Shown: one piece after another, positions 665 through 1,552 of the stretch | Numbering within the stretch: position 1 is the first letter of the stretch | How the letters are laid out: every line of letters starts with the position of its first letter | NCBI GenBank assembly: GCA_014384025.1 | Contig: JACNGQ010000134.1 | Location: 1 to 39,103 of the forward strand | From: Planctomycetota bacterium | Lineage (GTDB): Bacteria; Planctomycetota; Phycisphaerae; Sedimentisphaerales; Anaerobacaceae | Direction of reading: 5' to 3' | DNA length: 39,103 bases | Position numbers and translations under genes: made by a program | The notes under the pieces: model-generated | The model's database searches: none | What the model saw: the letters and a program-made list of their open reading frames with translations, nothing else | What the model was told of the DNA's origin: nothing

Positions 665-1552
665 GTGAACCCCATTAGAAATCGTATGAAAAGAAATGAT
701 ATGGTACAGAAAGGGAAAATTTCTAACGGGGTAAAAATATTAGCAGTTATACCGGCCCGGTTCAGTTCTACCAGATTCGCCGCTAAAGTTCTCGCTAAAG
801 ATACCGGCAAATTCCTCATCCAGCACACATACGAGCAGGCCTGCTTTGCTGAGCTGCCCGATAAGGTAATCATAGCGGCAGACGACGAAAAGGTTGTTGC
901 CGCAGCCAATACATTCGGCGCTGAATGTGTACTGACCTCTGTAGAGCACAAAAGCGGCACCGACCGCATCGCCGAAGCCGTAGCTGATCTTGATGTCGAT
1001 ATTATAGTTAACCTTCAGGCCGATGAGCCGGAAATCGACCCGGGCAATATTGACTATCTCGCCCGGCTTCTAATAGACAATCCGGATTATCCGATGGCAA
1101 CGCTTTGTGCTGATTTTCAGACTGCCGGGCAGGTAGCCGACCCTAATATTGTTAAGGTAATAGTATCGTCGTGCGTCGTGCGTGATGAGTATTGCGACCA
1201 GGAACAAGTGGATTCTTGCTTTCGCAGGAATGACAGTATGCAAAACAAAATCGGCAGGGCGATTTACTTTTCACGTTTACCTATACCTTATGACAGGGAT
1301 AAATCCGGCGTAGGAAATATCGGGCAGTATCAGCGGCATCTTGGTATTTACGCTTATCGCAAAGAATTCTTACTGAAAATTACAAAATTGTCACAGACGC
1401 CGCTGGAAAAAATAGAAAAGCTCGAACAGTTGCGAGTAATTGAAAATGGCTATAATATCCTCGTCGGCAAGGTCGAGCACACCTGCAACGGCATAGATAC
1501 GCCGGAGCAATACGCTGAATTCGTTGAAAGATATACAAATGAACAGAAATAA
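665..1552 (+). CDS. kdsB: 3-deoxy-manno-octulosonate cytidylyltransferase (CMP-KDO synthetase), with an in-frame insert
   Basis: KdsB activates KDO with CTP to make CMP-KDO for the inner core of lipopolysaccharide in the cytoplasm. The family signatures are present: AVIPARFSSTRFAAKVL near the N-terminus, HKSGTDRIAEAV, NLQADEPEI, YFSRLPIPYDRD, RHLGIYAYR and LEKIEKLEQLRVIE. The enzyme therefore supports a Gram-negative outer membrane. The start drawn is a GTG at 665; ATG codons at 686 and 701 are equally possible because none has a clear ribosome binding site. The protein is longer than the usual ~245-250 residues partly because about 26 extra residues, within residues 167-197, lie between the VKVI strand and the YFSR strand. 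This segment is coded by a palindromic repeat-like sequence (separate entry). The reading frame stays open through it, so the enzyme may still work. Confidence 0.93.
   Translation: MNPIRNRMKRNDMVQKGKISNGVKILAVIPARFSSTRFAAKVLAKDTGKFLIQHTYEQACFAELPDKVIIAADDEKVVAAANTFGAECVLTSVEHKSGTDRIAEAVADLDVDIIVNLQADEPEIDPGNIDYLARLLIDNPDYPMATLCADFQTAGQVADPNIVKVIVSSCVVRDEYCDQEQVDSCFRRNDSMQNKIGRAIYFSRLPIPYDRDKSGVGNIGQYQRHLGIYAYRKEFLLKITKLSQTPLEKIEKLEQLRVIENGYNILVGKVEHTCNGIDTPEQYAEFVERYTNEQK
1163..1255 (+). repeat. In-frame repeat-like insertion inside kdsB, with a dRS3-like palindrome
   Basis: Compared with known KdsB proteins, this 93-nt stretch replaces a linker of about five codons. It starts with a 7-bp tandem duplication (TCGTGCG at 1169-1175 and 1176-1182). 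It contains the palindrome ATTCTTGC-TTTC-GCAGGAAT at 1212-1231, whose arms pair with one T:G mismatch, followed by GACA. Sequences of the form GGATTC-tgc-tttcgca-GGAATGAC are familiar as dispersed intergenic repeats in many bacteria (for example the neisserial dRS3 type). I see only this copy in the window, so its repeat nature is inferred. Its ends are approximate. Confidence 0.6.

Follow-up and report, generated by a model that had tools for sequence, protein, structure and literature searches.

The window analysed here is a 39,103-nucleotide stretch of DNA from a planctomycete of the order Sedimentisphaerales. Its source genome is referred to as G000, and all other G-numbers denote the genomes of relatives. 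Near its left end lies kdsB, which is interrupted in frame by repeat-like DNA, and the features of the locus are as follows.

686..1552, plus strand: kdsB, 3-deoxy-manno-octulosonate cytidylyltransferase, starting at ATG 686 or 701 (Pfam and structure matches).
1160..1258, plus strand: expanded beta-hairpin loop of 33 codons (canonical 7), a net in-frame gain of 78 bp (comparison with relatives; dN/dS).
1166..1201, plus strand: 7-bp-periodic dispersed module TCGTCGTGCGTCGTGCGTGATGAGTATTGCGACCAG, encoding SSCVVRDEYCDQ (TRF array; copies in relatives; in-frame copies in other genes).
1208..1235, minus strand: CGTC-1-type REP, with tag TGTC at 1232-1235, stem arms at 1224-1231 and 1212-1219, loop GAAA at 1220-1223 and tail CCA at 1209-1211 (pattern search; features compared with PMC3733652).
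1235..1258, plus strand: right-hand flank, in which an inverted arm of the 7-bp module has probably decayed (inference).

The kdsB reading frame is free of stop codons across 665-1552 and its product matches PF02348 (E 4e-45), the nearest solved structures all being CMP-Kdo synthetases. The CTP-loop and metal residues of the Aquifex enzyme, R10, R15, K19, D95 and D219 (PMC3149649), match by position R23, R28, K32, D111 and D269 of the window KdsB, which are invariant in a 51-row alignment; the protein has the cytidylyltransferase fold together with its CTP-loop and metal residues. Between kdsB and pyrG we also noted a membrane-anchored ORF (1524-2366) that is pseudopilin-like by eye and has no Pfam match.

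When KdsB was aligned with solved chains using phmmer, the alignments were interrupted from query residue 158-160 to 185-189, which is the place between VKVI and YFSR where a first-pass annotation of this DNA had put extra residues. The loop running from VKV to AIYFSR comprises 33 residues in the window protein, compared to 6-7 in 40 of the 64 family members placed on a tree (see below), and the earlier figure of about 26 extra residues agrees with the net gain of 26 residues, with the frame open on both sides. In a structure model, the insert is bordered by strands 155-159 and 187-194, and its pLDDT is ~50, compared to a mean of 89 for the model.

Closer inspection showed that two unrelated dispersed repeats make up the insert, namely the 7-bp-periodic module and the palindrome. 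The tandem duplication of 7 bp noticed previously was recovered by TRF as 2.4 copies of CGTCGTG at 1167-1183. The palindrome, described as ATTCTTGC-TTTC-GCAGGAAT, is indeed present at 1212-1231 but is imperfect in G000, where one arm carries a T in place of the genome consensus C, resulting in a T:G mismatch (or a G-U pair in RNA). In G060 the palindrome is perfect, and the flank corresponding to 1235-1258 is better preserved and pairs with the left arm. The REP is read on the plus strand as VDSCFRRNDS. The RNA fold of the G000 insert was no better than that of shuffled sequences (z +0.3), which rules out a folding advantage for this copy, and we therefore regard it as partly decayed.

The comparison of the palindrome with dRS3 proved apt. 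In the definition of Di Nocera et al. (2013, PMC3733652), CGTC-1 REPs have an unpaired terminal tag, which is CGTC but often TGTC or CCTC, followed by an 8-bp stem whose first two positions are A-T, a loop of 4 nt and a CCA tail; the family includes Neisseria dRS3 and Rickettsia conorii RPE-6, and CGTC REPs lack a dedicated transposase (PMC3733652). On its minus strand, the kdsB element displays a TGTC tag, an 8-bp stem starting with AT (ATTCCTGC/GCAAGAAT, with one mismatch that is absent from G060), the 4-nt loop GAAA and the CCA tail. An extended pattern that included the flanks matched 23 times in G000, compared to no match for the reversed-pattern control, a number well above that expected by chance. 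The 22 copies besides kdsB bear out the expectations that the palindrome has copies elsewhere in the genome and that it is usually intergenic, as none of them lies in a credible gene; no longer flanking sequence was common to these copies. Across the family, 75 of 89 genomes contain the palindrome, with a maximum of 229 copies, and the control pattern matched in no genome. In G067, copies are arranged head to head as dimers of 71-117 bp. Like other CGTC-1 REPs, it is thus numerous, mostly intergenic and partly dimeric, with some copies within ORFs and no dedicated transposase found. Unlike them, it resides in an uncultured Phycisphaerae lineage, and the kdsB copy is nested in a second, 7-bp-periodic repeat at a recurrent site of one enzyme.

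We also looked for a mobiliser. Among 31 Y1 transposase loci of the family, 30 had no ATTCC palindrome nearby and one had a copy ~950 bp from the gene; since the palindrome does not closely flank these transposases, mobilisation by a RAYT was rejected. The kdsB palindrome likewise lacks the GTAG tag and the neighbouring RAYT gene of GTAG REPs. The sole Y1 transposase of G000 has another palindrome, GTAGGGTGGGGCC, on its flanks, and no mobiliser of either repeat, nor any excision or transposition event, was found. Judging from their dispersal and from their presence or absence in relatives, the repeats probably moved into place. This single Y1 transposase gene of G000, which is RAYT-like (L053:1459-2007, contig C292), has GTAGGGTGGGGCCTGCCCCACC palindromes on both sides in the classic GTAG REP layout.

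Dispersal was also evident for the 7-bp module. Allowing at most one mismatch, GTGCGTNRTGCGTNNTGCGANNA was found at 20 places in G054, 8 in G007, 8 in G075 and 1 in G000, the latter being kdsB, compared to 4, 0, 1 and 0 control matches, respectively; for G000, the survey covered 0.67 Mb of samples and whole-genome searches. More generally, arrays with a period of 7 bp were in excess over shuffled sequence, with 63 versus 6 in 400 kb of G054 and 32 versus 5 in 307 kb of G072. In-frame arrays occur in genes with firm Pfam matches, namely TruA, YbeY, RecO and RsmB in G054, and MurE, MurF, LexA, RlmN, a pyruvate:ferredoxin oxidoreductase subunit and KdsB in G072. The window's own module lies in frame in TruA (SSSCIARDASCEKE), in LigA of G031 (VVRRASCEG, where it splits the Pfam adenylation-domain match), in the phosphatidylserine decarboxylase Psd of G075 and in a debranching enzyme (GDE) of G035, while in the RNase P protein (RnpA) of G054 and G075 it is translated in another frame. 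A dispersed repeat is therefore part of the reading frames of unrelated genes, KdsB, TruA, LigA, RnpA, Psd and GDE, as is the case for the Rickettsia elements. Orthologues lacking the segment were sought for YbeY, RecO and Psd, and the Psd of G000 is without the segment found in that of G075. A search of the literature on heptamer repeats in Planctomycetes found nothing relevant.

Several further repeat-like stretches were seen in the same proteins. The Psd gene of G000 (L025 ~1500, contig C23) contains an in-frame palindrome, TTCTTGC-GAAA-GCAAGAA (PAFLRKQEG), which is probably what remains of a REP of the same kind after decay. A segment of the G000 RecO, SRDTEPVLSAVEGTHE (L179:11378-12148, contig C58), resembles two further in-frame repeats, CGAGATACGGAG and GTCCTGAGCGCAGTCGAAGG, and different repeat pieces occupy the site of this segment in the RecO of G054. 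In G035, one glycogen debranching enzyme (L385:354-2654) has three repeat-like in-frame stretches, KFQISNSKFQSKKF, SSCVVRDAYREKENTQYEYR and DRGQKTENRGQRTE.

We then compared the kdsB hairpin among relatives. The same insert, equal in length and free of indels, is present in G060, an independent assembly from the same genus. By contrast, two other members of the genus, G058 and G035, have a plain 7-residue hairpin (VKVVTDGNNSAIYFSR and VKVITDCNNSAIYFSR, respectively), which confirms that some close relatives lack the segment; the G058 and G000 proteins are ~89% identical. In total, 26 of 77 family kdsB genes are expanded at the hairpin, in 14 genera, 9 of which also have short-loop members, and every expanded loop except that of G075 is in frame. 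In G075 a further intergenic repeat (FEKTKPIQSQ) at the kdsB site leads to a stop near a contig end (L102:1-140, minus strand), so that either this kdsB may be broken or the contig may end in the repeat. It is very improbable that kdsB is degenerating as a pseudogene or that the locus is a chimeric artefact of assembly. The data do come from metagenome-assembled genomes and include the G075 gene with its nearby stop, but the insert recurs in the independent assembly, the frame is kept in all other expanded loops, and the KdsB core is under strong purifying selection (dN/dS 0.05-0.06, G000 versus G060).

The contents of the expanded hairpins differ widely. They include arrays of the 7-bp units GAGTCAC, GAGGGAC, CAGAACG and AAAACTC (the last in G005 and G049), inverted arrays in G072 (AGCGGAC...GTTCGCT), GTAG-type palindromes in G063 and G086, a CCGCCC palindrome in G031 and the CGTC-1 REP in G000, G060 and G027. 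Two other KdsB loops have also received inserts, in ~8 genomes each. Outside the family, among other families of the class, all 28 readable kdsB genes have the short loop. A KdsB paralogue in the same genomes showed no expansion, with HSP gaps of 9-12 nt where both halves matched, and pyrG and folP, surveyed in ~70 genomes each, carry no such inserts, which, as judged by these two genes, rules out a tendency shared by every gene of these genomes. A Fisher test of 27/77 against 0/70 gave p ~2e-9, a value that predates the later count of 26 and treats related genomes as independent, which they are not. In G005 we noted pyrG in two pieces in different frames (contig C34:18950-20633), reflecting a frameshift or a sequencing error.

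To follow the history of the hairpin, a tree of 64 family members was built leaving out the loop. It requires 17 changes between short and long loops, 12 of them forced by well-supported branches, and this number is near that obtained with shuffled labels, ruling out a single long-loop clade. We considered it possible, but rather unlikely, that one ancient insertion occurred early in the family, that its units drifted or were homogenised, and that the short loops are returns by recombination with short-loop alleles. Such a history would account for the left module VSSC..RD.YC common to G000, G060, G007, G027 and G075, which belong to three genera, and for the similar 14-residue stretch of fixed length at the end of many long loops. 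Moreover, the short loops of G058 and G035 both read TD.NNS and look identical by descent, and allele exchange is therefore plausible. However, the inserts differ in kind, from palindromes of the GTAG and CCGCCC types to direct and inverted arrays, and inserts also entered the other kdsB loops. Nor did identity between G000 and G058 drop near the loop, which rules out a recombination tract around it in G058. While the left module shows that part of the long loops was inherited or exchanged, the variety of contents favours many insertions over one old insertion followed by allele exchange.

We likewise considered whether the loop is a functional extension maintained by selection, such as a segment used for binding, or a hairpin in the mRNA that regulates kdsB. 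The expansion of one hairpin in 14 genera and never outside the family would fit this, as would the inserts that fold better than shuffled sequences (G072, z -5.0; G031, -4.2; G086, -3.5; G007, -3.3). We nevertheless judge it improbable. Insert sequences are unrelated between genera, over half of the tested inserts, that of G000 included, show no unusual fold, and sister species do without any insert. In addition, dN/dS within the insert is 0.46 (G000 versus G060), compared to ~0.05 outside it, the former value being uncertain because it derives from just 33 codons. As the C-terminal domain of KdsB serves Kdo binding and dimerisation (PMC3149649), an effect of the insert on the enzyme is possible. 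On balance, KdsB probably stays active despite the insert, whose own function is likely to be nil or minor.

Taken together, these results make it very probable that the KdsB segment is repeat-derived protein, formed from two dispersed non-coding repeats in frame. The suggestion that a repeat became protein here, much as in Rickettsia, is upheld by the 22 other copies of the palindrome and by the relatives without the segment. What goes beyond the earlier account is the composite make-up of the insert, the recurrent use of the hairpin as an acceptor of repeats across the family and the presence of the module in other genes. We propose that repeats reach genes often and that most arrivals are lost, the survivors being those that have a length of 3n, stay in frame, contain no stop and fall at tolerant turns. 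In kdsB, a CGTC-1 REP and a hairpin module with a 7-bp period would have come into the turn that best tolerates extra residues. They would be translated as a surface loop that is flexible and under weak constraint, because selection on an important enzyme spared only stop-free events of length 3n, the catalytic core remaining under strong purifying selection. The same kind of event may have occurred many times in this Sedimentisphaerales/Phycisphaerae family, both at the KdsB hairpin and in housekeeping proteins other than KdsB, again in loops. In relatives, different repeats occupy the corresponding position of KdsB and are also present in further housekeeping enzymes, which would make the conversion of repeats into protein a process of the whole family. 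The broader proposition, for which we consider the case evenly balanced, is that short hairpin repeats with a 7-bp period, two of whose three forward frames are open, have spread genome-wide and been recruited repeatedly as loops of many core enzymes, with the KdsB hairpin as a preferred acceptor. Such repeats would continually supply new protein sequence, on a scale similar to that in Rickettsia and perhaps exceeding it.

Among the closest parallels are the Rickettsia palindromic elements (RPE-1 and others), in which a dispersed repeat is also translated in unrelated housekeeping proteins that probably remain functional, although here several repeat types meet at one acceptor hairpin. The left module consists of 7-bp units and is probably unlike RPE-1. 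The conversion of repeats into protein is best known from Rickettsia, a reduced obligate intracellular bacterium in which relaxed selection offers a ready explanation. In the present cases the outcome is the same, but the hosts are uncultured Planctomycetota whose genomes are larger (up to ~8 Mb), the enzymes are of the essential type, and there are sister species without the insert. Heptanucleotide short tandem repeats of cyanobacteria share the 7-bp unit and the mainly intergenic location, whereas the repeats described here also form inverted arrays and are translated in enzyme loops. In Xanthomonas campestris and X. oryzae, REPs lie at about the same recB site (PMC3733652); there too, different REPs occupy nearly one site of one gene in related species, but the kdsB case extends over 14 genera and several repeat types.

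Natural pairs of KdsB with and without an insert offer a means to determine the cost of a random translated repeat to an enzyme, and they reveal which hairpins accept extra sequence. For annotation, stretches such as SSCVVRDAYCEKE, TSHESRATSHE and KTQNSKL in Phycisphaerae proteins should be read as translated repeats, not as domains. Among the arrays we encountered, two neighbouring MurE- and MurF-like genes of G072 (L370:15679-18584) both carry an in-frame ACGAGCC array near their N termini, translated as TSHEPRATS and ASHEPRVTS.
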